The notes under the pieces: generated by a model
Databases searched by the model: none
What the model saw: the letters and a program-made list of their open reading frames with translations, nothing else
What the model was told of the DNA's origin: nothing
Program-made: the position numbers and the translations under genes
Assembly: GCA_021205385.1 (NCBI GenBank)
Contig: JAJPXQ010000048.1
Coordinates: forward strand, 1 to 61,447
Origin: Lachnospiraceae bacterium
Lineage (GTDB): Bacteria; Bacillota; Clostridia; Lachnospirales; Lachnospiraceae
Direction: 5' to 3'
Length of the DNA: 61,447 nt
Shown: positions 47,973 to 61,447 of the stretch, piece after piece
Position numbering within the stretch: the first letter of the stretch is position 1
Layout: every line of letters starts with the position of its first letter

Positions 47973-48257
47973 TTACTTCTCATATGTGTCTGAGAGGTTC
48001 TTTAGGAACTCCATTCTCTCAGCATCCTCGTAACCACGGAAAATGACTTCATTTATATCTTCGTGGTTGAACAGGTACTGATGAACACCCTCCCCAAGAT
48101 GTCCCTCCGGGTAAAGCTCGCCTAAATAATCGTAGTTCTTTTTCTTACGCCCTTTGCCATCACTTTGCATAATGCCTATAATCATCAATTTCTTCTCGCC
48201 ATTTTTCAGAAGAACCACAGAGCCGATTGGCAGTAAATTCTGTATTTCCATCGTCAT
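47973..48257 (-). CDS. DUF4176 domain protein
   Basis: A 94-residue protein of the DUF4176 family, found in Firmicutes often near type VII secretion or polymorphic-toxin clusters. The family core LLPIGSVVLLKNGEKKLMII is at residues ~8-27 and YDYLGELYPEGHLGE at ~43-57. ATG 48257 follows GAGGTGG. No toxin or secretion gene lies beside it in this window. It is tightly bracketed by two direct repeats and sits on the strand opposite to its neighbours, suggesting it moved in as a unit. Confidence 0.85.
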   Translation of the reverse strand: MTMEIQNLLPIGSVVLLKNGEKKLMIIGIMQSDGKGRKKKNYDYLGELYPEGHLGEGVHQYLFNHEDINEVIFRGYEDAERMEFLKNLSDTYEK

Positions 48258-49097: not shown

Positions 49098-50492
49098 ATG
49101 GATTTGAAGAAGTTTATCGGAGAATCTACGGAATACGATAAAAAACAGACCGTGGAGATGAAAAAGCCGAAGAGCTGGTTGAAAAGTATCAGTGCCTTTG
49201 CCAATACGGCAGGAGGTGTGCTCATTTTTGGTGTTACGGATGATGAACAGGTGATTGGCCTTGAGGATGTAAAGAGTGCGTCGGAATATGTCAGCCAGAA
49301 GGTAAAAGAGCGCATTTCTCCATTCCCTCAGATTGTGATGCAGCTTCACACAGTGGGAGATGGAAAAAATATTTTGACAGTTCGCGTTCCGGCTGGAACG
49401 GATACGCCTTATTATTATACAGCGGATGGCGTCACCGAGGCTTATATCCGGATTGGAAACGAAAGCGTCCTTGCTGATTCAACGGAGTTAAAGCGCCTTG
49501 TCCTTAGAGGGAACAATTCATCGTATGATGCGCTTATTTCGCCATATGATTATGAGGATTATTCCTTTAGCAAGTTGCGTGAAAGGTACAAATCCTGGAC
49601 AGGTAACAGTATGACAGAAAAGCTGATGGATTCCTTTGGAGTTCGTGACGCAAGCGGCAAGCTTACGAATGCAGGCGCGTTACTTGCAGATGATTGCCCT
49701 GTCCGTCATTCGCGTCTTTTTTGCACACGATGGAATGGTCTGGATAAGAGCGGCGGACAGATTGATGCAATCGACAGTGGCGAATTTTCCGGAAGTCTTA
49801 TTATACTGCTGAATGAAGGCCTCGCTTTTGTGAAACGTAATATGAAAACGATGTGGAAAAAGACGGCTGATTCTCGGATTGAAATGCCGGATTACTGTGA
49901 ACGCAGTGTTTTGGAAAGTCTGGTGAACGGACTTATACATCGCGACTATCTTGTAAATGGAAGTGAAGTTCATATTGACATGTATGATGACAGGCTGACG
50001 ATTTATTCGCCAGGTGGGATGGCGGATGGAACGCAGATACAGGAATGGAATATAGACGACATTCCATCTACAAGACGAAATCCTATTCTTGCAGATATTT
50101 TTGGACGGCTTGGATACATGGAGCGACAAGGCAGCGGACTTGGAAAGATTATAGGTGCATATGAGAATGCGGCAAATTATGAGCCGGAACTGTCACCTAA
50201 GTTTTTCTCAAATCGGGTATGCTTTATTGTCACACTTTGGAATTTGAATTTTAAAGCTTCACAGGATGAAGCTTTAAATGAGGCAATAAATGAAGCTTTA
50301 AAACCGGAAGCATTAGATCTGATTGCTTTGATAAAGTCTGAACCAACTGTAACGCAAGCCACTATGATACAAACATTGGGGGTGTCCAGGAGTAAGGTGC
50401 AGCGAGTAATGAAAGCACTGACAAATGAGGGCTATATTAGACGTGAAGGTTCCAGGAAAAACGGACGTTGGGTAATATTAAAAGACATCTGA
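49098..50492 (+). CDS. AlbA_2/Schlafen-type ATP-binding transcriptional regulator
   Basis: A 464-residue protein. An N-terminal AlbA_2 domain (ISAFANTAGGVLIFGVTDD, residues ~35-53) is followed by an HATPase-like region (SVLESLVNGLIHRDYLVNGS and RQGSGLGKIIGAYENA), then a C-terminal winged helix with TQATMIQTLGVSRSKVQRVM. Such proteins are widespread on mobile and variable loci; some act as regulators, others in defence. Function here is unknown. A repeated motif EALNEAINEALKPEAL lies before the winged helix. Base composition is AT-rich compared with flanking core genes. Confidence 0.86.
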   Translation: MDLKKFIGESTEYDKKQTVEMKKPKSWLKSISAFANTAGGVLIFGVTDDEQVIGLEDVKSASEYVSQKVKERISPFPQIVMQLHTVGDGKNILTVRVPAGTDTPYYYTADGVTEAYIRIGNESVLADSTELKRLVLRGNNSSYDALISPYDYEDYSFSKLRERYKSWTGNSMTEKLMDSFGVRDASGKLTNAGALLADDCPVRHSRLFCTRWNGLDKSGGQIDAIDSGEFSGSLIILLNEGLAFVKRNMKTMWKKTADSRIEMPDYCERSVLESLVNGLIHRDYLVNGSEVHIDMYDDRLTIYSPGGMADGTQIQEWNIDDIPSTRRNPILADIFGRLGYMERQGSGLGKIIGAYENAANYEPELSPKFFSNRVCFIVTLWNLNFKASQDEALNEAINEALKPEALDLIALIKSEPTVTQATMIQTLGVSRSKVQRVMKALTNEGYIRREGSRKNGRWVILKDI

Positions 50493-50517: not shown

Positions 50518-50916
50518 ATGTTATTTATTTGCTATCCAAAGTGTTCCACCTGTAAGAAAGCGCAGAAGTGGCTGGACGAGCATGGCATAAAATACGAAGA
50601 ACGTCACATCGCTGAGGAGAATCCGTCTTATGAAGAGTTGAAGGACTGGCATTCGAAAAGTGGTCTTCCGCTTAAGAGGTTTTTCAATACCAGCGGGCTT
50701 CTTTATAAGGAAATGCAGTTGAGGGACAAGCTTCCTGCGATGAGTGAGGAAGATCAGCTAAAGCTGCTTGCCACCAACGGGATGTTGGTAAAGCGGCCAT
50801 TGCTTATCGATGGTAACACTGTGCTTGTTGGATTCCGGGAAACTGAGTGGAATGATAAATTGAATCAACTTATCCCCGCGCAAAATTCTTTACAACTCCC
50901 ATCCGCTGCATTATAA
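50518..50916 (+). CDS. ArsC/Spx-family protein (YffB type)
   Basis: A 132-residue thioredoxin-fold protein of the arsenate-reductase/Spx family. CYPKCSTCKKAQKWLDEHG carries the N-terminal CxxC (C10-C13 region), and LVKRPLLIDGNTVLVGF is the conserved C-terminal stretch. No arsenic genes are nearby, and it lacks the extra Spx features, so a redox or unknown role fits better than arsenate reduction. It lies 25 bp after the AlbA_2 gene, behind AGAAGGAG. Confidence 0.9.
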   Translation: MLFICYPKCSTCKKAQKWLDEHGIKYEERHIAEENPSYEELKDWHSKSGLPLKRFFNTSGLLYKEMQLRDKLPAMSEEDQLKLLATNGMLVKRPLLIDGNTVLVGFRETEWNDKLNQLIPAQNSLQLPSAAL

Positions 50917-50974
50917 TGCAACTGTCGGCGAAAGGCCGATATAAAAAATGATTTACAGACTGAGGAGAGTCCTG

Positions 50975-51772
50975 ATGGGTATTAAGAGAAACCGTATAGT
51001 CGTCAAGGTGGGGACATCGACACTTACGAATGAGCTGGGAAAGAGCAATCTGAGAAAATTTGAGGATCTGGCGCTGATCCTGGCGGATATACAGAATATG
51101 GGAAATGAGATCGTGCTCGTCTCGTCCGGCGCGATTGCCGTGGGGGCGCAGAAGATGAACCTCCCGCAGAAGCCCACGGAGATGCGGATGAAGCAGGCCG
51201 CGGCCGCCGTCGGCCAGTGTGAGAACATGTTCCTGTACGATAAATTCTTCGGGTATTACAATAAGACTGTGGCGCAGATTCTGCTGAACGCCGACGACAT
51301 CCGGGATGAAGAGAAGAAGGAGAATCTTGCCAATACTTTTGAAGCTTTGCTCGAGCAGGGAATCATTCCGATTGTCAATGAAAATGACTCTGTGAGCTAC
51401 CGGGAGATCGAGTCCGACGACAAGCTTTTTGGTGACAACGACATGCTCTCCGCAGTGGTCGCTGTGCTGTGCAACGCGGACAAGCTCGTTATCCTGTCTG
51501 ACATAGACGGATTCTTCGATAAGGACCCCAGATTATACAAGAACGCAGAGCTGATCAGCCGCGTGGAAAAGATCGATGAATCCACGTATGCGCTGGCGGG
51601 CGGCGCCGGCTCGAGAAGGGGAACCGGCGGTATGCGCACGAAACTGCAGGCGGCCGATATCGCGACCTCGCAGGGCATCGACGTGATCGTCACCAATGGC
51701 AAAACGCCCAGGGCGTTATATGATATCATCGACGGAAAGAAAGTCGGCACGCTATTTGTCGCACAGAGATGA
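50975..51772 (+). CDS. proB: Glutamate 5-kinase
   Basis: A 265-residue amino-acid kinase catalysing the first step of proline synthesis (glutamate to glutamyl-5-phosphate). RIVVKVGTSTLTN is the N-terminal phosphate-binding motif, with LVSSGAIAVG, IVNENDSVSYREI, FGDNDMLSA and RGTGGMRTKLQAA further on. It ends without the C-terminal PUA domain, a short form common in Clostridia. ATG 50975 follows GAGGAGA. No proA follows here; the next gene is convergent. Confidence 0.94.
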   Translation: MGIKRNRIVVKVGTSTLTNELGKSNLRKFEDLALILADIQNMGNEIVLVSSGAIAVGAQKMNLPQKPTEMRMKQAAAAVGQCENMFLYDKFFGYYNKTVAQILLNADDIRDEEKKENLANTFEALLEQGIIPIVNENDSVSYREIESDDKLFGDNDMLSAVVAVLCNADKLVILSDIDGFFDKDPRLYKNAELISRVEKIDESTYALAGGAGSRRGTGGMRTKLQAADIATSQGIDVIVTNGKTPRALYDIIDGKKVGTLFVAQR

Positions 51773-54034
51773 GAGGGCATTTTCAGAGAGTTGCAGCATC
51801 TTCTCTTTCATTCCCTCAATGTCCAGCACTCCACAGGCGAATCCCTTTTTCACCAGCGATTCCGGCAGGTATTCGTCGTATTTATCGAAGATCGGCACCT
51901 CGCGGGGATAGACAAGGCTCATCGGATCGATGGGCTTTTTCAGTTCCTCCGCCAGAATTTTCCAGAATTCCTGCTCGGAGACCGTCATGACGAACTGCAT
52001 GAAGTAAGGCCGGGAGGAATCCAGCCCTTTGATGCCCAGACGTTTGCCGCACCGGATCTTGAGAAAGCGCTCCAGGGCGAGGAAGGCATAGGTGCCCAGC
52101 CAGGGGAAGAGGCAGTACATGTTGCCGCCGAGGCAGATCAGGTTTTTGTCCTTCAGGCCTGCGTTTTCCGCGGCAGTGCGGGCGGTCTTCAGCCTCGCGA
52201 CGGCATTTTTCATCAGATAAGGATAGGATTTCTCCTCACAGAGTACGCCCAGCATCCGTTCCAGGATGTGGGTATGAATATCGCCTGCGACCTCGCCGAA
52301 GTAGGCGGGGACTTTCCCCTTGATCATTTCACAGTAAACCATGTGCCGCTTGTGGTCGACTTCGTCCACCAGCCAGACATGACCGGCGATGGCGAGCTTC
52401 TCCCCGGCGGGCGGCGGCTTCACCACCGTGCCCAGCTCCTCGGAACCGGCGCGGACTGTGTATTCTTCATTTTCCTGAAATACTGCATAAAATTTATAAT
52501 TGTTGATGACACGCTCTCCGGCAAGCCCCACGATCAGGCCGCCGCCCTCTGTCTGCTGGATATGATCTGTCTCCAGCAGATGGCGCAGCAATACCCGGAA
52601 ATCCTCCTGCGATACGCGCTGAAAATAGCGGAGCGACAGAACGCGGGAGGCGAGCTGGGCGGGCGTCATCTCGCCGCAGGAGGCCAGTGTGCTCATGGTC
52701 TGGTGGTACAGAAGGCTGTAGGGCAGCGCATCCAGCCTCGGCGGCTCTACCCAGCGCTCCTCGAGATAGAGCTGCACCAGCGCGATGCCCTGAATCAGCT
52801 TCCAGGGAATCGTAACGGGCAGAAGAGCGCGCGCCTCCGGCGGCTCTTCGCGCATGACAAACCACATCTCCGGCGGCAGCTCACGCCGCCCGGTGCGCCC
52901 CAGGCGCTGCAGGAAAGCCGAGACGGTGAAGGGCGCGTCAATCTGGAAGGCCCGTTCCAGCCGGCCGATGTCGATACCGAGCTCCAGTGTGGCGGTCGTC
53001 ACCGTGGTCTGGAACTGTTCCTCGTCCTTCATTACAGCCTCCGCCGTCTCGCGGTAGGATTCCGACAGATTTCCATGATGAATCAGGAAACGGTCCGGCT
53101 CATGTCGGGCCTCGCAGTATTGCCGCAGCGTCGTTGTGACCGCCTCGCATTCTTCCCGGGAATTGACGAAAACCAGGCATTTCTTGCCTCTGGTGTGTTC
53201 AAAGATATAGCCGATGCCGGGGTCCGCCTCCTTCGGGGCGGTGTCTGTCTTTGGCGCGAGCGCGTCGTCCACCGGCAGCATCGCTTCCGCAGGCTGATTG
53301 TGGATTTTCGTCGGCGCCCCGGGGTTGGTCGGTGGAAAAGTATAGAAATGCTCCATGGAGAGCCGCCACCTGACGCTGCCCTGCGGCAGCTTCGGGACGA
53401 TGGTCCGGCGTCCCGTCCCGGCAGAGAGAAATTCGCAGGCGTCTTTCGGGTCGCCGATGGTCGCCGAGAGCCCGATGCGCCGGGGGTTTACGTCCGCCAG
53501 GCGGCAGAGCCGCTCGATCAGGCACAGCGTCTGTCCGCCACGGTCCCCGCGCATGAGGGAGTGCAGCTCATCGATCACGATAAAGCGCAGGTCGCCGAAG
53601 AGTTTTCCTATCGCAGAGTGCCTGCGCAGCAGCATGGCCTCCAGGCTCTCCGGTGTGATCTGCAGGATGCCGGAGGGATGCTTCATCATCTTATTTTTGT
53701 GGGAAGCCGACACGTCCCCGTGCCAGTGCCATACCGGAATATGCGCCTCCTGGCAGAGATCGTTCAGCCTGGCAAACTGGTCGTTGATCAGAGCCTTGAG
53801 CGGTCCGATGTAGATGGCTCCCACAGAAGAGGGCATCTCCTCCGTAAAGAGCGTGAGAATGGGGAAAAAGGCGGCCTCCGTCTTGCCCGATGCGGTGGAA
53901 GCTGTCAGCAGCAGATTTTCATCCGTATTGAAAATGACGTCTGCCGCGGCGGCCTGGACCGCCCGCAGATTTTCCCAGCCGTTCTGATAAATATAATCCT
54001 GGATGAAAGGCGCATAGCGGTCAAAGGTATTCAT
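51752..54034 (-). CDS. DEAD/DEAH-box helicase, Shango-like SngC
   Basis: A 760-residue superfamily 2 helicase related to Lhr and BrxHII helicases. Walker A ASTASGKT (residues 45-52), DELH box (155-158), SAT motif (190-192), and motif VI LQRLGRTGRR near residue 372 are present. A large C-terminal part follows with AYFGEVAGDIHTHILERMLG. It is the third gene of an operon with a BrxD-like ATPase (15 bp upstream) and a TerB-domain protein, the gene content of the Shango anti-phage system. Its 3' end overlaps proB's 3' end by 21 bp. Confidence 0.88.
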   Translation of the reverse strand: MNTFDRYAPFIQDYIYQNGWENLRAVQAAAADVIFNTDENLLLTASTASGKTEAAFFPILTLFTEEMPSSVGAIYIGPLKALINDQFARLNDLCQEAHIPVWHWHGDVSASHKNKMMKHPSGILQITPESLEAMLLRRHSAIGKLFGDLRFIVIDELHSLMRGDRGGQTLCLIERLCRLADVNPRRIGLSATIGDPKDACEFLSAGTGRRTIVPKLPQGSVRWRLSMEHFYTFPPTNPGAPTKIHNQPAEAMLPVDDALAPKTDTAPKEADPGIGYIFEHTRGKKCLVFVNSREECEAVTTTLRQYCEARHEPDRFLIHHGNLSESYRETAEAVMKDEEQFQTTVTTATLELGIDIGRLERAFQIDAPFTVSAFLQRLGRTGRRELPPEMWFVMREEPPEARALLPVTIPWKLIQGIALVQLYLEERWVEPPRLDALPYSLLYHQTMSTLASCGEMTPAQLASRVLSLRYFQRVSQEDFRVLLRHLLETDHIQQTEGGGLIVGLAGERVINNYKFYAVFQENEEYTVRAGSEELGTVVKPPPAGEKLAIAGHVWLVDEVDHKRHMVYCEMIKGKVPAYFGEVAGDIHTHILERMLGVLCEEKSYPYLMKNAVARLKTARTAAENAGLKDKNLICLGGNMYCLFPWLGTYAFLALERFLKIRCGKRLGIKGLDSSRPYFMQFVMTVSEQEFWKILAEELKKPIDPMSLVYPREVPIFDKYDEYLPESLVKKGFACGVLDIEGMKEKMLQLSENALSSLCDK

Positions 54035-54049
54035 GCGCGCGCTGCCTCC

Positions 54050-55372
54050 TTATAATGTAAACTCCGCGTATTCTCCGAGCTCGTCGGCCGCCTGCTCCTC
54101 CAGCGGCGTCTTCGCGTAGGAGAAGTTTTCGGAACCCATGAGCTCCGCTACCTTCAGCTTCGGGTTCTGGTACAGAATATCCAGAAGCTCGATGAAGTCG
54201 CGGATGATCTCCCGCGGCGTGATGTGGGAGTCCGCACCCACGCGGCTGTATTCGATCTGGATGAAAGTCATGAGATCTTCCTGCGTGAGAGTCTGCTCGT
54301 AGCCAAAGAGCTGGGCATGAATGTCCGCCAGCTTCTCCACCAGGATCAGCATCTCTTCATTGGTCAGCGGTGAGAGCCTGATGATCGGCGCCAGCATATC
54401 GCGGGTATCTCCGCCGGAAAAACGCCCTTCCGTCAGCCGGGAGCGCAGGGCTTCGTAGCTGTAGATGCCCCTGCGGGTGTCCTCGATGCACTGCGGCGTG
54501 CCGCACATGATAATGCCGAAATACTTTGCCTTGCCCTGCAGGGTGTCGTTGTACATGGTCAGAATTTTCTCATAATTATATTGTCGGGTGATGGAGTTGG
54601 GGATCTTGTAGATGTTCACCAGCTCGTCAATCAGCACCAGCATCCCGGCATAGCCCGCATTTTTCAGGAAGGCGGCAAATATTTTGATATATTCATACCA
54701 GTCGTCATCGGTGATGATCACATTTACGCCCAGCTCCTGCTTCGCCTCGGTCTTCGTCGCGTACTCGCCGCGGAACCAGCGGACGACTTTGGCCTTCGTC
54801 TCCTCGTCGCCGTCCAGAAAGGCCTGATAATAGAGGGTCAGAAGCCGCGCGAAGTCAAAGCCGTGCACCAGTCCATTCAGATCGTTAATGACCGCGAAGA
54901 TCTTCTGCTGCACCAGCCGGGTAAATTCTTCTGATGAGAAATCCAGTCCGGTTTCCATCGCCACCGAGCTCTGCACACCGTTGATCCACTTATCCAGCAC
55001 CAGAGGCAGCGCGCCGCCCTCCGGGCGGGTCTTTGTGGACATATTCTGGATCAGCTCGCGGTAGGTGGCGAGCCCCTGTCCCTTCGTTCCCTGCAGGCGG
55101 CGCTCCGGCGAGAGGTCGGCGTCCACTACCACAAAGTTTTTGTCCATCACATAATTGCGGATCGTCTGCAGCAGAAAGCTCTTGCCGCTGCCGTATTTCC
55201 CGCAAATGAAGCGGAAGGTCGCCCCGCCGTCGGCGATGATCTCCACGTCGCGCAGCAGCGCGGTGATCTCCGGCTCACGCCCGACTGTGATATAGGGCAG
55301 GCCGATGCGCGGCACGACGCCGCCTTTTAAGGCGTTGATGAGGGTGTTCGCAATTCTCTTTGGAATCTTCAA
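54050..55372 (-). CDS. BrxD-like ATP-binding protein (DUF2791), Shango-like SngB
   Basis: A 440-residue P-loop ATPase of the DUF2791/BREX BrxD group. Walker A GKYGSGKS (residues 58-65), Walker B MLVLIDELVNIY near 245 and sensor-like ICGTPQCIEDT are visible; the N-terminal RIANTLINALKGGVVPRIGL is typical of the family. It overlaps the TerB-domain gene by 4 bp (ATGA), so expression is coupled. BREX itself is excluded because no PglX, PglZ or BrxC is present; TerB + this ATPase + helicase is the Shango set. Confidence 0.86.
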   Translation of the reverse strand: MKIPKRIANTLINALKGGVVPRIGLPYITVGREPEITALLRDVEIIADGGATFRFICGKYGSGKSFLLQTIRNYVMDKNFVVVDADLSPERRLQGTKGQGLATYRELIQNMSTKTRPEGGALPLVLDKWINGVQSSVAMETGLDFSSEEFTRLVQQKIFAVINDLNGLVHGFDFARLLTLYYQAFLDGDEETKAKVVRWFRGEYATKTEAKQELGVNVIITDDDWYEYIKIFAAFLKNAGYAGMLVLIDELVNIYKIPNSITRQYNYEKILTMYNDTLQGKAKYFGIIMCGTPQCIEDTRRGIYSYEALRSRLTEGRFSGGDTRDMLAPIIRLSPLTNEEMLILVEKLADIHAQLFGYEQTLTQEDLMTFIQIEYSRVGADSHITPREIIRDFIELLDILYQNPKLKVAELMGSENFSYAKTPLEEQAADELGEYAEFTL

Positions 55373-56790
55373 CTTGGTATCATTCCTTTCAGATCATCCA
55401 GGTAATCCTCCACGAGGATGGGAGTGTTGCCGTCAAATTCGATCACCGTGTCGGCGAATTCATCGTAGAGCTGCTCGTTGACCGCTTCTGCCAGAACGGA
55501 GGCCATCAGGTGCTTTTCCGAGAGAAAGCCCTGCAGATCTCCGCCGTACAGCAAAATCCGGGTAAAGAGCAGCTCGTCGCCGGAGAGGATACAGTCTGTC
55601 ACGATATCCTTCTCTTCCTGTACCACGGGCGGCTCCGCCTCCACATAGCGCTCTTCCTCGGTCATGAGCCTCTGACCGACAGCGTCCGAGCTCCTGCGGA
55701 TACCGGACAGTTTGCTTAAGTCAAACGCCACTTTTGGAACAGCCGATTTTTTCTGCTCCTCGATGGCTTCGGAAAGAAAGCGTACCATCGTTTTGGTCTC
55801 CGTGCCTGGTTTCAGTGTCGGCTTTACACCGTAAGCTTCTCTTATGAGACGGTCAGCTGCCCGGACAAAGACGCCCAGCGTCCGGTCACGCCGTGAGGAG
55901 AAATAGCCGCGTTCCAGACTCCACTGATCCCGCTCGCAGCGGTAACACTGGACAGGACTGACGCGGTACTCATAATGGTCGAATTTCTGGTGTCCGAAGA
56001 AGACGGCAGAGCGGAAAGGTGTATACCACAACCGCGCCGGATTGCCGAAGAGCTTCTGCGAATAGGGGCGCCCATAGCGTCCGGCATAGCGGGCGTTCAG
56101 TCTGCGGTATGCCCTGCAGAGTACCTGGGAAAGCTCATCCGGGTATTTCTTATAGGCCTTCGATTTCTCCAGATGATAGGAGGAGAGCCGCATAATGGCC
56201 GGAAACAGCGCTTCGTCTTCTGCAGAATCACAGTCGCGAAGGGCGATCAGAGCTTCATCAAAATCTGCGTTTACATAGTCTCTGACCAGCTCCACAGGGA
56301 GATTATAGTAGATGGCATAGTCCGCGATCCACTGTCTGGCATAGCGCTGAATATGTGGATCAAGGGTGCTGTAATGCTCATAAAACCACAATAGTGCGTC
56401 CAGTCCGTCCTCCTTTGTCTCCGAGCCGATCTGGTGCAGCAGTTCATAGAGATAGAGATAGGCATAGGACAGCGAAGTCTTTTCCAGCATTCCATGGCGC
56501 AGCCCGGTTCTCCAGGTAAAGTATCCCCGGAGTTCGGCCATGGACAGACTCTGATAGGTGGGAAAATAGTGCAGTACTTCCTGCGCGTAGGGGCAGTCAT
56601 CCTCGAATCGCTCCATGTAGCGGGCCTGCAGGTAGAATATTTTGGCGTCGTTTCTTCGTGAAAAAGGCGAGCCGAAAGCAAGCTCCCGCATTTTCCGGTA
56701 TTCTTTCGGCGGGAGACTCCTTGCCCGCTCCGGTGTAAGCCGGATGGGCTCGTCCTCATAGTAGTATTCGTGATTTTCTACCCATTTCAT
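55369..56790 (-). CDS. TerB-domain protein, Shango-like SngA
   Basis: A 473-residue cytosolic protein. A TerB N-terminal-type domain covers about residues 40-200 (ARYMERFEDDCPYAQEVLHY and ELRGYFTWRTGLRHGM, then YLYLYELLHQIGSE). A charged middle and a C-terminal helical TerB-C-like segment follow (LFTRILLYGGDLQGFLSEK). No signal peptide. The frame is open to 56844, but that part lies inside and upstream of the promoter; ATG 56790 is chosen. No ribosome site precedes it. First gene of the defence operon. Confidence 0.84.
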   Translation of the reverse strand: MKWVENHEYYYEDEPIRLTPERARSLPPKEYRKMRELAFGSPFSRRNDAKIFYLQARYMERFEDDCPYAQEVLHYFPTYQSLSMAELRGYFTWRTGLRHGMLEKTSLSYAYLYLYELLHQIGSETKEDGLDALLWFYEHYSTLDPHIQRYARQWIADYAIYYNLPVELVRDYVNADFDEALIALRDCDSAEDEALFPAIMRLSSYHLEKSKAYKKYPDELSQVLCRAYRRLNARYAGRYGRPYSQKLFGNPARLWYTPFRSAVFFGHQKFDHYEYRVSPVQCYRCERDQWSLERGYFSSRRDRTLGVFVRAADRLIREAYGVKPTLKPGTETKTMVRFLSEAIEEQKKSAVPKVAFDLSKLSGIRRSSDAVGQRLMTEEERYVEAEPPVVQEEKDIVTDCILSGDELLFTRILLYGGDLQGFLSEKHLMASVLAEAVNEQLYDEFADTVIEFDGNTPILVEDYLDDLKGMIPS

Positions 56791-56796
56791 GCTACA

Positions 56797-56825
56797 AGTA
56801 TAATAAAACTGGTAGTGGAAATCAA
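56797..56825 (-). promoter_or_regulatory. Leaderless-type promoter of the Shango-like operon
   Basis: On the minus strand TTGATT - 17 bp - TATACT (56825-56820, 56802-56797). Only 6 bp separate the -10 from ATG 56790, so transcription should start at or next to the A of the ATG. The palindrome TCAAG-CA-CTTGA (56822-56833) covers the -35 and could be an operator. Confidence 0.72.
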
Positions 56826-56838
56826 GCACTTGAAAAAA

Positions 56839-56880
56839 TAGCACTCACCTCTTGACAGTGCTAACAATTCGTGCTATAGT
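56839..56880 (+). promoter_or_regulatory. MarR-exporter promoter with operator-like repeats
   Basis: TTGACA - 17 bp - TATAGT (56852-56857, 56875-56880), near consensus. TAGCACT (56839-56845) and AGTGCTA (56857-56863) form a perfect 7-bp inverted repeat around the -35, and GTGCTA recurs at 56872-56877 next to the -10. These are good candidates for MarR binding. Confidence 0.8.
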
Positions 56881-56919
56881 TGCGCATAGAATCAAGTGAG
56901 CAAAAAGGAGGTGAAATAC

Positions 56920-57351
56920 GTGGCGCAGGATCAGAGCAGGGATTGCGCTGCATTGATCAAACATATAGACATCAAGATGACAAAGTGTGCAAATGAACGT
57001 TTCAATTCGTATGGCGTTACATTCCGGCAGGTGCGTCTGCTGATGCTGCTTCACCAGATGGGCGCCGGAGACGTACTGTTGAAATCACTGGAAAAGTATT
57101 TGGAGGTCGCTCAGTCTACAGCGGCCGGTCTTGTTGTCCGGCTGGAAAAGAAAGGTCTGGTGCAGGGATGCGTTCCTGCCGATGATAAACGGCAGAAGAT
57201 TGTCCGACTCACGGAGAAGGGAAAGGAGCTTTGTGTCGCACTCGAGGAAGATATGCGGGAGGGCGAAAGAATTCTGCTGGAGAGCCTGGACGAAGCGGAA
57301 AGGGAGCAGTTTTACAGTCTGCTTAAAAAAGTAAATGATTCGATGAAATGA
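56920..57351 (+). CDS. MarR-family transcriptional regulator
   Basis: A 143-residue winged-helix regulator: LRLLMLLHQMGAG-like region (VRLLMLLHQMGAG), recognition helix AQSTAAGLVVRLEKKGLVQ, and wing VPADDKRQKIVRLTEKGKE. GTG 56920 lies 6 bp after AAAGGAGGTG; an upstream in-frame GTG at 56896 precedes the ribosome site and is rejected. It leads into two ABC exporter genes and probably represses them until a drug or toxic compound binds. Confidence 0.92.
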   Translation: MAQDQSRDCAALIKHIDIKMTKCANERFNSYGVTFRQVRLLMLLHQMGAGDVLLKSLEKYLEVAQSTAAGLVVRLEKKGLVQGCVPADDKRQKIVRLTEKGKELCVALEEDMREGERILLESLDEAEREQFYSLLKKVNDSMK

Positions 57352-57447
57352 ATACCCGGTTTTCTAAGCGGGTGTTAATTTAAAACAAATCAAACGCATG
57401 CTGTTAAATATATGCTTTTGAAATAAAGAAAGGAAGGATTACTTACT

Positions 57448-59184
57448 ATGTTAAAAACATTACTGAAAAGTGTGCGTCAATATAAAAAGGAATCTATATT
57501 GACGCCGCTTTTTGTGGCAATTGAAGTGGTATTTGAATGTCTGCTGCCGCTGATCATGGCAAGCCTGATCGACCAGATGACAGGCGAGGCGATCGGGCCG
57601 ATCCTGCGGCTGGCTGTCATCCTGATCGTCATGGCGCTGTGCTCGCTGCTCTTCGGCGTACTCTCCGGCGCGATGGCCTCCACCGCGTCCTGCGGCTTTG
57701 CTAAAAATCTGCGGGAGGACCTGTTCTTTAAGATTCAGGATTTTTCTTTTGCGGATATTGACTATTTCTCGACGTCCTCGCTGGTGACGAGGATGACGAC
57801 GGATGTGACGAACATCCAGAACGCGTACCAGATGATCATCCGTATCGCGGTCCGCACACCACTGATGCTTATATTTTCTCTGGTGATGAGCCTCTCGATC
57901 AATGTCCGGATGGCGCTCATTTTTCTCGCGCTGCTTCCGATCCTGGGCGTCGTCCTTTTTGGAATTGCGCTGCATGTGCATCCGATTTTCAAAAGGATTT
58001 TCAAAAAGTACGATGCGCTCAACAATTCCGTGCAGGAGAATGTCGCCGGGATCCGTGTGGTGAAATCCTTTGTGCGGGAAGATTATGAGAAGGAAAAGTT
58101 CGACAAGGCGGCGCGTGAGGTCTGTGACGACTTTACGAGAGTGGAGAAGATCCTCGCTCTTAACCGGCCGTTCATGATGTTCTGTATTTATGCCGCCTTC
58201 ATGCTGATCAGCTTCTTCGGCGCAAACATCATCATCAATACGGCGGGTTCGAGCCTCACGACCGGACAGCTCTCCTCGCTGATCAACTATGGCGTACAGA
58301 TTCTGTCTTCCATGATGATGCTCTCCATGGTGTTTGTTATGGTCAGTATGGCGATGGAATCCGGAAATCGTGTCGCGGAGGTGCTCACCTGGGGCAGTTC
58401 TCTGGAATCGCCGGAGAATGGACTGACGGAAGTGCCGGACGGAAGCATTGACTTCGATCATGTCTCCTTTCGCTATCATAAGGACAGCAAAAAAGCAGCC
58501 CTGTCGGATATCAGCCTGAACATCAAATCCGGGCAGACAGTGGGCATCATGGGAGGCACTGGCGCGTCCAAGACGACGCTGATCCAGCTCATCTCACGTC
58601 TTTACGATGTCAGCGAGGGCAGCGTAAAGGTCGGCGGACACGATGTCCGGGAATATGATCTGGAGACGTTGCGCGACGCGGTCTCCGTCGTCCTGCAGAA
58701 GAATGTGCTGTTTTCCGGTACGATTAAGGAAAATCTGCGCTGGGGCAATAAGGAAGCCACGGATGAAGAACTGGTGGAAGCGTGCCGGGCTGCGCAGGCG
58801 GAAGAATTCATTGAACAGCTGCCTGATCGCTATGACACGCGCATCGAGCGTGGCGGCACCAACGTCTCCGGTGGGCAGAAGCAGAGGCTCTGCATCGCGC
58901 GGGCGTTGCTGAAGAAACCGAAGATACTGATCCTCGATGACTCCACGTCCGCGGTCGATACGAAGACAGACGCCCTGATTCGCCGGGCGTTCCAGAATGA
59001 GATCCCGGATACGACGAAGATTATCATCGCACAGAGAGTCTCCTCCGTGCAGGATGCGGACATGATTCTCGTGCTGGATGATGGGAAGATCGTGGAGCAG
59101 GGAACTCACGAGGAGCTGCTGGCGCTGAATGGCATCTATAAAGAAGCGTATGAAACGCAGACTAAGAGTAAGGAGGCGGTCTGA
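57448..59184 (+). CDS. ABC exporter half-transporter, degenerate-site subunit
   Basis: A 578-residue type IV ABC exporter: six membrane helices in residues ~15-300, then a nucleotide-binding domain. Walker A reads GGTGASKT (~369-376) with Ser in place of the usual Gly before Lys, the signature is VSGGQKQR, and Walker B ends LILDDSTSAVD with Asp where the catalytic Glu should be. This is the non-catalytic-site partner of a heterodimer. AAAGGAAGG precedes ATG 57448. It lies 96 bp after the MarR gene. Confidence 0.94.
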   Translation: MLKTLLKSVRQYKKESILTPLFVAIEVVFECLLPLIMASLIDQMTGEAIGPILRLAVILIVMALCSLLFGVLSGAMASTASCGFAKNLREDLFFKIQDFSFADIDYFSTSSLVTRMTTDVTNIQNAYQMIIRIAVRTPLMLIFSLVMSLSINVRMALIFLALLPILGVVLFGIALHVHPIFKRIFKKYDALNNSVQENVAGIRVVKSFVREDYEKEKFDKAAREVCDDFTRVEKILALNRPFMMFCIYAAFMLISFFGANIIINTAGSSLTTGQLSSLINYGVQILSSMMMLSMVFVMVSMAMESGNRVAEVLTWGSSLESPENGLTEVPDGSIDFDHVSFRYHKDSKKAALSDISLNIKSGQTVGIMGGTGASKTTLIQLISRLYDVSEGSVKVGGHDVREYDLETLRDAVSVVLQKNVLFSGTIKENLRWGNKEATDEELVEACRAAQAEEFIEQLPDRYDTRIERGGTNVSGGQKQRLCIARALLKKPKILILDDSTSAVDTKTDALIRRAFQNEIPDTTKIIIAQRVSSVQDADMILVLDDGKIVEQGTHEELLALNGIYKEAYETQTKSKEAV

Positions 59185-59185
59185 A

Positions 59186-61087
59186 ATGAGAGACAATAAA
59201 TCCAGGAAACCGGGCAGTTTCAGCCGGCTGATTAAATATTTGTTTCACTATTATCCGGTGCAGCTGGTCGTCGTGATGGTCTGCATCGTGGTCAGCGCCG
59301 TCGCGTCTGTCATATCCACTGCATTCCTGCAGCGGCTGATCGACGAATGCATCACGCCGGGCATTACCAGCGGCATGGCGGCGGTCTGGGACAGACTGGT
59401 CTCCATTCTGATGATCATGGGAACCATCTATGTACTGGGTGTCGTGTCATCCTTTATTTATACGAGAATTATGGCAGGCGTCACACAGGGCACGCTGATG
59501 CACCTGCGAGAGGATATGTTTGATCGTATGGAGACGCTGCCGATCAAATATTTCGACACGCATGCGCACGGAGATATCATGAGTACTTATACAAATGATA
59601 CGGATGCGCTGCGGCAGATGCTGGGGCAGAGCCTTCCGATGATCTTCCAGTCCGGCCTGACGATGATCGTGATTGTCATCATGATGCTGTACTACAGCCT
59701 CTGGCTGACGCTGGTCGTGTTCGCGTTCGCCATCCTGATGCTGTTTATCACAAGGAATTTCGGAGGCCTGAGTTCCAAGTATATGAGGGCGCAGCAGAAA
59801 TCCCTGGCTGAGGAGGAAGGCTTTATCGAGGAGATCATGGACGGACAGAAGGTTGTGAAGGTGTTCAACCATGAGGAGGAGAGCAAAGCGGATTTCCTGA
59901 AGCTGAATGAGCAGCTCTTCGAGGATGGAAAAGCGGCGCATCTCTACGGCAACATCCTGATGCCGATCCTGAACAATGTGGGAAACCTTCTGTATGTGGT
60001 GCTGGCGCTCGTTGGGGCGCTGTTGATCTGGCTCGGTGTGACCAATATCGGTCTGGCGGGGACAGAAGCGATTTCCGCCGGTATCATCATCTCATTCCTG
60101 AGCATGTCGAGACAGTTCTCGCAGACGATCGGCCAGGTGTCCAACCAGGTGGCAATGATCGCCATGGCCATCGCGGGCGCAGGGCGTGTCTTTGCACTGA
60201 TCGACGAGGAACCCGAGCAGGATAACGGCTATGTCACGCTCGTGAACGCGGAAAAGGATGAAGAAGGAAATCTGAGAGAGGCGGATCACACCACCGGTCT
60301 GTGGGCGTGGCGGCATCCGCATCAGGCGGACGGAACCGTGACTTATACGGAACTGAAAGGCGACATCCAGCTGGAGCATGTGGACTTCGGCTATAACCCG
60401 GATAAGATGGTGCTGCATGATATTTCCCTCTACGCGAAGCCGGGGCAGAAGATCGCCTTCGTCGGCGCGACCGGCGCCGGAAAGACGACGATCACCAATC
60501 TGATCAACCGTTTTTATGACATTGAGGACGGCAAGGTGCGCTATGACGGGATCAATATCAATAAGATCCGCAAGCCGGATCTGCGCCGCTCCCTGGGCAT
60601 CGTGCTGCAGGACGTCAATCTCTTTACCGGCACGGTCATGGATAATATCCGCTATGGTCGGCTGGACGCCACGGACGAGGAGTGTATTGCGGCCGCGAAG
60701 CTGACGAATGCGGACAGCTTTATCTCGCGATTGCCGCAGGGCTATCAGACAGAGCTTGCCGGAAACGGCGCGAACCTCTCACAGGGACAGCGGCAGCTGC
60801 TTTCCATCGCGCGTGCGGCTGTCGCGAATCCGCCGTGTATGATCCTCGATGAGGCGACGAGCTCCATCGATACCCGGACAGAAGCCCTGGTGCAGGACGG
60901 CATGGACCACTTGATGGAGGGCAGGACGGTATTTGTCATCGCCCACCGACTGTCCACCGTGCGGAACAGCAAGGCGATCATGGTGCTCGACCATGGGCGC
61001 ATCATCGAGCGCGGCGATCATGACGATCTGATCGCACAGAGGGGTACGTATTATCAGCTGTATACCGGTGCGTTTGAGTTGGAGTAA
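59186..61087 (+). CDS. ABC exporter half-transporter, catalytic-site subunit
   Basis: A 633-residue type IV ABC exporter: six membrane helices, then a nucleotide-binding domain with canonical Walker A GATGAGKT (~426-433), signature LSQGQRQ and Walker B MILDEATSSID with the catalytic Glu. A ~40-residue insertion between helices and ATPase (HTTGLWAWRHPHQADGTV) is seen in this exporter subgroup. ATG 59186 overlaps the end of the partner gene by spacing of one base and follows AAGGAGGCGG. Together they should form an asymmetric multidrug or lipid exporter. Confidence 0.94.
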   Translation: MRDNKSRKPGSFSRLIKYLFHYYPVQLVVVMVCIVVSAVASVISTAFLQRLIDECITPGITSGMAAVWDRLVSILMIMGTIYVLGVVSSFIYTRIMAGVTQGTLMHLREDMFDRMETLPIKYFDTHAHGDIMSTYTNDTDALRQMLGQSLPMIFQSGLTMIVIVIMMLYYSLWLTLVVFAFAILMLFITRNFGGLSSKYMRAQQKSLAEEEGFIEEIMDGQKVVKVFNHEEESKADFLKLNEQLFEDGKAAHLYGNILMPILNNVGNLLYVVLALVGALLIWLGVTNIGLAGTEAISAGIIISFLSMSRQFSQTIGQVSNQVAMIAMAIAGAGRVFALIDEEPEQDNGYVTLVNAEKDEEGNLREADHTTGLWAWRHPHQADGTVTYTELKGDIQLEHVDFGYNPDKMVLHDISLYAKPGQKIAFVGATGAGKTTITNLINRFYDIEDGKVRYDGININKIRKPDLRRSLGIVLQDVNLFTGTVMDNIRYGRLDATDEECIAAAKLTNADSFISRLPQGYQTELAGNGANLSQGQRQLLSIARAAVANPPCMILDEATSSIDTRTEALVQDGMDHLMEGRTVFVIAHRLSTVRNSKAIMVLDHGRIIERGDHDDLIAQRGTYYQLYTGAFELE

Positions 61088-61114
61088 GCTTCAGCGTGAG
61101 GCAGTCAGAGGGTG

Positions 61115-61149
61115 CAGTTCGCCCGGAGGATATTCCTCCGGGCGAACTG
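61115..61149. terminator. Bidirectional hairpin after the exporter genes
   Basis: A perfect 16-bp stem (61115-61130 with 61134-61149) and 3-base loop lie between the convergent exporter and glycine-rich protein genes. There is no clear T-run on either strand. Confidence 0.75.
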
Positions 61150-61169
61150 TCTGTCAGGAATCCGGTGGC

Positions 61170-61447
61170 TCAGTCGATCTCGACCAGATTAATGTAAGCG
61201 TAGCAGGTTCCGGAGTGTCCGGTTTCAGAACCGCCGGTCGGCGAAGGCATAGTGGCATTGCCGGCGATCATCGTTGCCCTTTCAAAGACATATCCGGTCT
61301 CAGACAATGCACATCTGCTGTTTTCCGCAGCATTTTCCCAACTGTCGGCATTTTCATAGTAGCCGCTTATATAGCTTGAGCCGCCGCCACCGCCGCCGGC
61401 AATTTTAGCGCCGCCGCCATACCAGCCGCCGCCACCGCCTGCGGCAT
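61170..61447 (-). CDS. Glycine-rich surface-type protein, C-terminal part (runs off the window)
   Basis: An open minus-strand frame from the window edge to a TGA at 61172-61170, at least 92 codons. It starts within Gly runs (AGGGGGWYGGGAKIAGG, then GGGGSSYISG) and ends with MPSPTGGSETGHSGTCYAYI and NLVEID. This matches the C-terminal glycine-rich module found in many Firmicute surface and phage-tail-like proteins, with Trp/Tyr-Gly clusters and the Pro-Ser-Pro-x-Gly-Gly...Gly-His-Ser-Gly signature. The N-terminus and any anchor lie outside the window. Confidence 0.8.
   Translation of the reverse strand, partial: AAGGGGGWYGGGAKIAGGGGGGSSYISGYYENADSWENAAENSRCALSETGYVFERATMIAGNATMPSPTGGSETGHSGTCYAYINLVEID

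Follow-up and report, generated by a model that had tools for sequence, protein, structure and literature searches.

The window studied here, a 61,447-nucleotide stretch of DNA from a Lachnospiraceae bacterium (contig JAJPXQ010000048.1), carries three tightly packed genes, sngA, sngB and sngC, which, judged from their sequences, are a genuine and complete operon of the anti-phage system Shango, belonging to a branch with a compact SngA. We hold with moderate confidence that the best explanation overall is a complete compact-SngA Shango operon that behaves as a mobile cassette, with SngA as the sensor and SngB and SngC working through a loading and helicase mechanism. Our comparisons were based on 17 genomes of the genus and on 200 genomes of the family, one per genus. 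The genomes of the genus compared are drafts. The window's own genome is termed G000, its sister genome and nearest relative is G013 (locus L002), and G010 carries locus L003. Statements taken from the cited papers refer to the portions of their text that were retrieved.

Family assignment of the operon

The initial annotation had proposed the gene content of Shango, and the PADLOC profiles of SngA, SngB and SngC all matched. SngA matched PDLC03958 at 219 bits with an E-value of 5.4e-65, covering positions 64-527 of the 528 in the profile, SngB matched its own model at 641 bits (E 2e-193) as compared to 155 for BrxD, and SngC matched at 931 bits (E 1.3e-280) as compared to 409 for BrxHI. The NCBIfam BrxD model gave the window SngB 155.8, under its cut-off of 350. 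A control operon on a Salmonella plasmid yielded 340, 615 and 924 bits for SngA, SngB and SngC, so that the window SngB and SngC score at the level of their enterobacterial counterparts, whereas a control BREX-2 of Streptomyces scored in reverse (BrxD 686 versus SngB 113; BrxHI 1042 versus SngC 380). A phylogeny against BREX, suggested earlier as a check together with the profile search, likewise puts the window nearer to Shango. Neither of the two refutations proposed by the initial annotation held, as the SngA profile matches and kinship is closer to Shango than to BREX. In a FastTree analysis of SngB and SngC joined (35 taxa, 1165 columns), with four BREX-type pairs as the root, the window lies within a 21-member compact clade (support 0.992), which Paenibacillus Shango joins at 1.0 and the second Firmicute type joins next (0.992), with proteobacterial and archaeal Shango forming the other side. 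The BREX sequences fall outside the Shango clade, this split being the rooting choice. Of the single-gene trees, that of SngC agrees (0.998 for a 25-member group), and that of SngB is weaker (0.73) and places the second type nearer than Paenibacillus.

The gene arrangement is that of Shango as well. The claimed order, the 4-bp overlap of the sngB start with the sngA stop and the 15-bp gap between sngB and sngC are all present, on the minus strand. Among 65 loci with three full genes, the window included (16 of 81 were dropped, as genes were missing, short or cut), the order A-B-C is kept in 64 and the 4-bp A-B overlap in 44. SngB and SngC were confirmed as a BrxD-like ATPase and a DEAD/DEAH helicase (Table 1), and their motifs, described as intact, could be located: in SngB, Walker A (residues 58-65) and Walker B (245-251), and in SngC, the helicase motifs SGKT (49-52), DELH (155-158), SAT (190-192) and QRLGRTGR (376-383). 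None of the Pfam matches of the three proteins is a nuclease domain, the ResIII and Cas3-like matches of SngC being helicase parts.

One could also consider the locus to be a relic or minimal fragment of BREX, namely BrxD and BrxHI beside an unrelated TerB gene. SngB and SngC are indeed homologous to BrxD and BrxHI (155 and 409 bits), and BREX type 2 encodes this ATPase and helicase side by side, as does the window. However, the BREX models score far lower on the window proteins than the Shango models, scores and tree separate the two systems, the A-B-C order recurs from locus to locus, and PglX, PglZ and BrxC were absent from the nine window proteins around the operon that were searched with at least one library. 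We thus regard this explanation as hardly credible, and a BREX origin of the two genes was rejected on the PADLOC scores and the joined tree.

SngC also resembles the helicases of Druantia (DruE), Dpd (DpdJ) and Hachiman (HamB), which are superfamily-2 helicases of anti-phage systems; their models match it weakly, at 61, 76 and 43 bits, respectively, as compared to 931 for SngC. These helicases have other partner genes than SngC does. A potential separate helicase clade of antiphage systems was described for SngC, BrxHI, DruE and DpdJ (PMC12278908). A report of Shango in E. coli is cited in PMC10250203, which itself describes the restriction of several phages in PAO1 by the P. aeruginosa PA14 system. 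By analogy with these tested relatives, we infer an anti-phage function for the window operon. The literature on which we drew further includes PMC13356809 and PMC12458937.

Some loci depart from the common layout. L039 has the order A-C-B, and extra open reading frames (ORFs; nudix-like, small P-loop, dockerin protein and unknowns) lie between sngB and sngC in L025 (11324-15782), L040, L043, L044, L047, L048 and L060. In two Ruminococcus loci, an ArsC-family gene occupies this position (L064, 4989-5336; L066, 11325-11657). These genes are 66-71% identical to an ArsC-family protein of the window (50518-50916), which lies two genes from the cassette.

Table 1 Features of the Shango operon in the window, with positions counted from its first nucleotide
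Feature	Position	Strand	Basis
sngA, compact form, 473 aa from ATG	55369..56790	-	TerB_N residues 42-235 and TerB_C 342-468 (PADLOC, Pfam)
sngB, 440 aa, TTG start	54050..55372	-	BrxC_BrxD-family AAA+ ATPase, PF10923 569 bits, PADLOC SngB
sngC, 760 aa	51752..54034	-	Superfamily-2 DEAD/DEAH helicase; Pfam DEAD and Helicase_C, PADLOC SngC
Probable sigma-70-type promoter of the operon, TTGATT-17-TATACT	56797..56825	-	Consensus scan
Cassette extent	51773..56799	not applicable	blastn breakpoints versus L134, L136 and L147
Conserved sngA 3' end, about 75 codons, end of TerB_C	55369..55594	-	blastn segments, sliding dN/dS, segment identities

PF10923 is the former DUF2791, the name under which the ATPase had first been described. 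The mechanically called ORF of sngA opens earlier than the ATG, at a GTG at 56844.

Compact SngA and its rate of change

The window operon differs most from enterobacterial Shango in SngA. While the enterobacterial protein (L154, 769 aa) comprises TerB_N, TerB and TerB_C, the window SngA (473 aa) contains only TerB_N and TerB_C. The description of SngA as a TerB-domain protein thus held for the two flanking domains and not for the core TerB domain (PF05099), which remained undetected. As the PADLOC SngA model matches without this core, we filed the window SngA as a variant. The same composition was found throughout the branch: in 50 compact SngA proteins (the window and 49 picked from 80 loci), TerB_N and TerB_C were present in all and the central TerB in none, with a threshold of E up to 0.1. 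The central domain was detected in four of six plasmid-borne SngA proteins (one of the four under the curated cut-off), those without it being from Aeromonas (L149, 789 aa) and Paenibacillus (L150, 573 aa). TerB_C is present in all six plasmid-borne proteins. When profiles of compact and E. coli SngA were compared, only 62 columns aligned, in TerB_N. No account of the compact SngA was found in the literature among the matches listed, and a single-sequence search of solved structures gave no match for SngA or SngB.

A second Shango-like type occurs in the same genus (L129, 6775-11928; L130, 6039-11141; L131, 7283-12503). Its SngB scores about 410 bits and its SngC 613 bits, and the SngA profile reaches only 54 bits in L129. 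TerB_C was the only domain recognized in SngA of L130 and L131, and none was recognized in L129, giving TerB_C in two of three type-2 proteins.

SngA is also the fastest-changing protein of the three. In all 2080 pairs of the 65 loci, it is the least identical protein, whereas the mean identities of SngB and SngC are within 0.02 of each other in every band (e.g., 0.73 and 0.74 where that of SngA is 0.35). Between the window and L003, sngA has a dN/dS of 0.12, as compared to 0.03-0.04 in sngB and sngC. The synonymous distances (dS) come from a simple Nei-Gojobori count, such that the excess seen for sngA could partly be a bias in a faster-changing gene: between G000 and G010, dS is 0.40 for both sngB and sngC, 0.42 for abc1, 0.49 for metK and 0.76 for sngA, and between G000 and G016, it is 0.46 for sngB, 0.47 for sngC, 0.45 for abc1, 0.65 for metK, 0.40 for proB and 0.97 for sngA. 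SngB and SngC thus diverge in lock-step, about as core genes do, while the higher dS of sngA is as if its alleles had been exchanged separately. The end of the gene behaves differently and remains almost at the conservation level of sngB and sngC, as the last 75 sngA codons group with the conserved part in blastn, and codons 421-460 are 97% identical to L003 with a dS of 0.26. Over 49 relatives, the best-kept segments of SngA are residues 41-100 and 396-473. From these sequence comparisons, we infer that sngA alleles were exchanged separately within the genus and that the C-terminus would serve as a constant dock, and the faster divergence of SngA suggests a variable sensor.

For metK, dS between G000 and G013 is only 0.07 (L175, L178), as compared to mostly 0.19-0.29 for the genes at the window's Shango site. 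A different history of metK or of the Shango region may explain this, and we offer no other explanation.

Cassette, chromosomal sites and distribution

The promoter and sngABC constitute a self-contained cassette of about 5 kb, which occupies three different sites within one genus. In comparisons with copies at other places in that genus (L134, L136 and L147), homology begins at 51773-51781 and ends at 56794-56799. On the far side of this border, the marR-ABC loci of G010, G011 and G007 are homologous to the window only from about 56840 onward, and that of G016 from 56906, where its contig ends. The cassette lies beside marR-ABC in G000 and G013, the latter sharing the window site over 50717-61447 at 94.5% identity. 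In G016, it lies between metK and proB. In G000, G010, G011 and G013, different DNA, which these four share (87-98%), comes after metK, and the metK site is thus empty there. In G010 and G011, the neighbour of the cassette is a gene that looks nudix-like from its translation. Beside the L134, L136 and L147 copies, neither a transposase nor an integrase was recognized; the flanking ORFs there were judged on their first 60 residues, and not all were searched with profiles.

A proB gene of 96-99% identity accompanies the cassette in G000, G013, G016 and G007 and not in G010 or G011, whose proB genes show 47-48% identity and lie elsewhere in the genome. The proB at 50948-51772 of the window is the only one found in its own genome, and genes of its kind adjoin Shango in four of the six genomes that have the window's Shango type. 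Among the remaining genomes of the genus, the highest proB identity is 87% in G003, 77% in G004 (with a stop) and 47-51% in ten genomes, and no proB was found in G008.

On the sngA side, the neighbours are a MarR regulator and an ABC exporter half (Pfam), followed by a second ABC half (59129-61087) recognized from its translation only. The relics of hsdR (C-terminal; PADLOC REase_I, 70 bits) and hipA (N-terminal; Couple_hipA, 25.9 bits versus a cut-off of 22.5) sit 2.7-4.1 kb past the end of sngC. Between them lies an orphan DUF4176 protein (47973-48257, minus strand, 90 bits), and the hsdR relic adjoins an intact, low-GC Schlafen AlbA_2/RecG-like C-terminal protein with a winged helix (49098-50492). 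The adjacent exporter and the decayed hipA and hsdR pointed out by the initial annotation are thus real, although the defence neighbourhood read from them did not hold. The relics form a separate block with a GC content of 45.0%, as compared to 57.1% in the cassette, and the sister genome is homologous to the window only as far as 50717, which does not reach this block, with 0.8 kb of its contig left on that side.

To characterize the surroundings of related loci, the closest ORF of 100 aa or more was picked mechanically on each flank of 75 loci, giving 134 ORFs, of which 132 were scanned (one of more than 1200 aa and one other were left out), together with 87 of 87 more distant ORFs; the PADLOC threshold for the near ORFs was E 1e-15. 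As the tables tally members per model, the numbers of distinct ORFs are rough estimates: about 8 of the 132 near ORFs match a non-Shango PADLOC family, as compared to about 11-13 of the 87 far ORFs, that is, somewhat more often in the latter. Counted per family name, the near matches were E1-E2 (3) and WYL, IetA, DolB, PDC-M37B and mad8 (1 each), and some of these, like the E1-E2 matches to ThiF proteins, probably reflect housekeeping genes. The near ORFs additionally include one SngC-like and one SngA-like ORF. As the near ORFs are not enriched, we see no defence-island context in the compact branch, and the defence-island argument was rejected for it. In this, the branch is unlike the Shango of P. 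aeruginosa, which sits in cDHS1 (PMC10250203), and unlike some E. coli islands, in which Shango occurs alongside the antiplasmid system ApsAB (PMC11096173). Location in a defence island or hotspot is not something that the Shango models require.

Such surroundings would also suit a genome-maintenance or stress module, in which SngB and SngC act in DNA repair or replication restart and are kept by Firmicute lineages for that role. The commonest Pfam families of the near ORFs, among 25 of 113 listed, are ordinary (LysR 11, DUF308 6, HAD 5), purifying selection on sngB and sngC is strong, and a CIRCE-like element lies 12 bp upstream of the sngA -35 (see below). However, the system is patchy, its copies sit at different sites, the same three genes occur in distant phyla (L046, L063 and L067), and anti-phage activity was reported for a relative (PMC10250203). 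We consider a maintenance role rather unlikely.

In the genus, 10 of 17 genomes have a SngB match: six belong to the window's type (that of G007 is broken up over two contigs, and that of G011 has a split frame), three belong to type 2 (G003, G009 and G015), and G008 has a SngB fragment to which no type was assigned. In the family sample, 24 of 200 genomes match SngB at E 0.001 and 19 of 200 at 498 bits or more, the window's own genome included. Of 5426 E. coli genomes, 479 carry the enterobacterial type. L046, whose record title gives a complete Deltaproteobacteria chromosome, has a SngB with 72% identity, which points to transfer between phyla.

SngB relatives were also found on 690 of 72,556 plasmid records, some of them BrxD. 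This frequency would fit conflict between mobile elements, and, together with the ApsAB-associated E. coli islands (PMC11096173), it raises the option of an anti-plasmid or general anti-mobile-DNA system, in which the same machinery is aimed at conjugative or plasmid DNA. As the only Shango assays found described, in the literature portions retrieved, are against phages, we regard plasmids as unlikely to be the natural targets. Phage-borne copies were sought through SngB in phage records and, for close relatives only, in viral contigs, and none was found.

Proposed mechanism and signs of decay

How Shango works was not explained in the literature among the matches listed. BrxD was assigned to the ORC-Cdc6 AAA+ ATPases, is tightly linked to BrxHI and was suggested to be its loader, and BrxHI is described as a Ski2-like helicase of superfamily 2 that carries winged-helix, beta-barrel and Lhr-type C-terminal DNA-binding parts (PMC12839542). 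As SngB and SngC are homologous to this pair, they would form the same kind of loader and helicase, leaving SngA as regulator or sensor. We propose that SngA holds the SngB-SngC pair in check and would sense infection, with its TerB_C part docking on the pair and its faster-evolving N-terminal part (TerB_N and linker) receiving a phage-derived trigger. SngB, as an ORC/Cdc6-like AAA+ ATPase, would then load or switch SngC onto foreign DNA, and the released SngC may invade phage DNA and block its replication or expose it to host nucleases. Loading, docking, sensing and outcome are all predictions.

The compact-SngA cassette with this mechanism has some drawbacks that need to be weighed. The ORC/Cdc6 class of SngB is taken from its homology to BrxD, and TerB_C docking is predicted from sequence; in profile searches of solved structures, SngB matched P-loop proteins weakly (best E 0.027), and SngA had a single weak match (E 0.81), which is not convincing. 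The window SngA lacks the core TerB domain that a review, in the portion retrieved, lists for Shango (PMC10952713). Positive selection on sngA was not found, its dN/dS of about 0.1 being faster yet still purifying, and between the window and L002, sngA dS is not raised (0.22, as compared to 0.27 for sngB, 0.19 for sngC, 0.29 for proB, 0.24 for abc1 and 0.11 for marR), so that separate exchange of sngA is seen only at larger distances than this nearest relative. The neighbours of compact Shango show no enrichment in defence models, SngB had no match in 50,697 phage records or in viral contigs (in a search for close relatives only), and no report of a defence test for the compact branch was found in the literature among the matches listed. 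Lastly, the window sngA appears, from its promoter position, to be leaderless, sngA of the sister genome carries an in-frame stop, and the sngB frame of G011 is split.

The latter points could indicate a system that is decaying in this lineage, with sngA expression lost along with its leader and the genes starting to break. In the consensus scan, the operon promoter matched at 9 of 12 positions, and the region holds six such sites versus 2.6 expected. The same arrangement was found in 7 of 17 upstream regions (L002, L003, L004, L010, L011, L014 and L016), including those of the three nearest relatives. In the window and L002, 6 nt separate the end of the -10 from the sngA ATG, as compared to 44 nt in L003 and L004, leaving a leader shorter by 38 nt. 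With so short a distance, the window sngA transcript is predicted to be leaderless. Leaderless mRNAs can, however, be translated, all window genes are open, and dN/dS between the window and L002 is low (sngB 0.034, sngC 0.037), slightly above that of proB (0.022) and abc1 (0.019) and below that of marR (0.22, from few changes). The in-frame stop, split frame and short leader may be decay or draft-assembly errors, and decay of the system seems improbable to us. The earlier statement that the operon looks functional is thus supported only in part: intact motifs and purifying selection agree with it, and it is tempered by the shortened leader and the stop in the sister sngA.

A CIRCE-like inverted repeat (56838-56864) has two mismatches to TTAGCACTC-N9-GAGTGCTAA, with a chance expectation of 0.01 per window. 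It overlaps the marR-ABC -35 and lies 12 bp upstream of the sngA -35, and related sequences precede marR in L139, L140 and L142. Elsewhere in the genome, there are four perfect CIRCE copies, and seven sites with up to three mismatches, as compared to four for a backwards control. CIRCE is the control element of the heat-shock repressor HrcA, and the repeat may put the sngA and marR-ABC promoters under heat-shock control.

Beyond the favored explanation of a compact-SngA Shango cassette, a more specific proposal is possible, and we hold it tentatively. The compact branch would be a natural minimal Shango, in which TerB_C is the constant dock on an ORC/Cdc6-type loader and helicase and the rest of SngA is a sensor that can be replaced and that strains exchange separately from sngBC, in the manner of a specificity subunit, with the operon moving as a cassette between ordinary chromosomal loci without a recognizable transposase. 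The sensor would then exist as a long form (TerB_N, TerB and TerB_C), a compact form (TerB_N and TerB_C) and a type-2 form with at most TerB_C.

For the Shango family, these results mean that a protein can match the Shango models without the TerB core domain and that a missing defence-island context is no argument against Shango in the compact branch. With its reduced SngA, cleanly bordered cassette and dozens of related loci, this branch would offer a small system in which sensing, loading and action may be separated.

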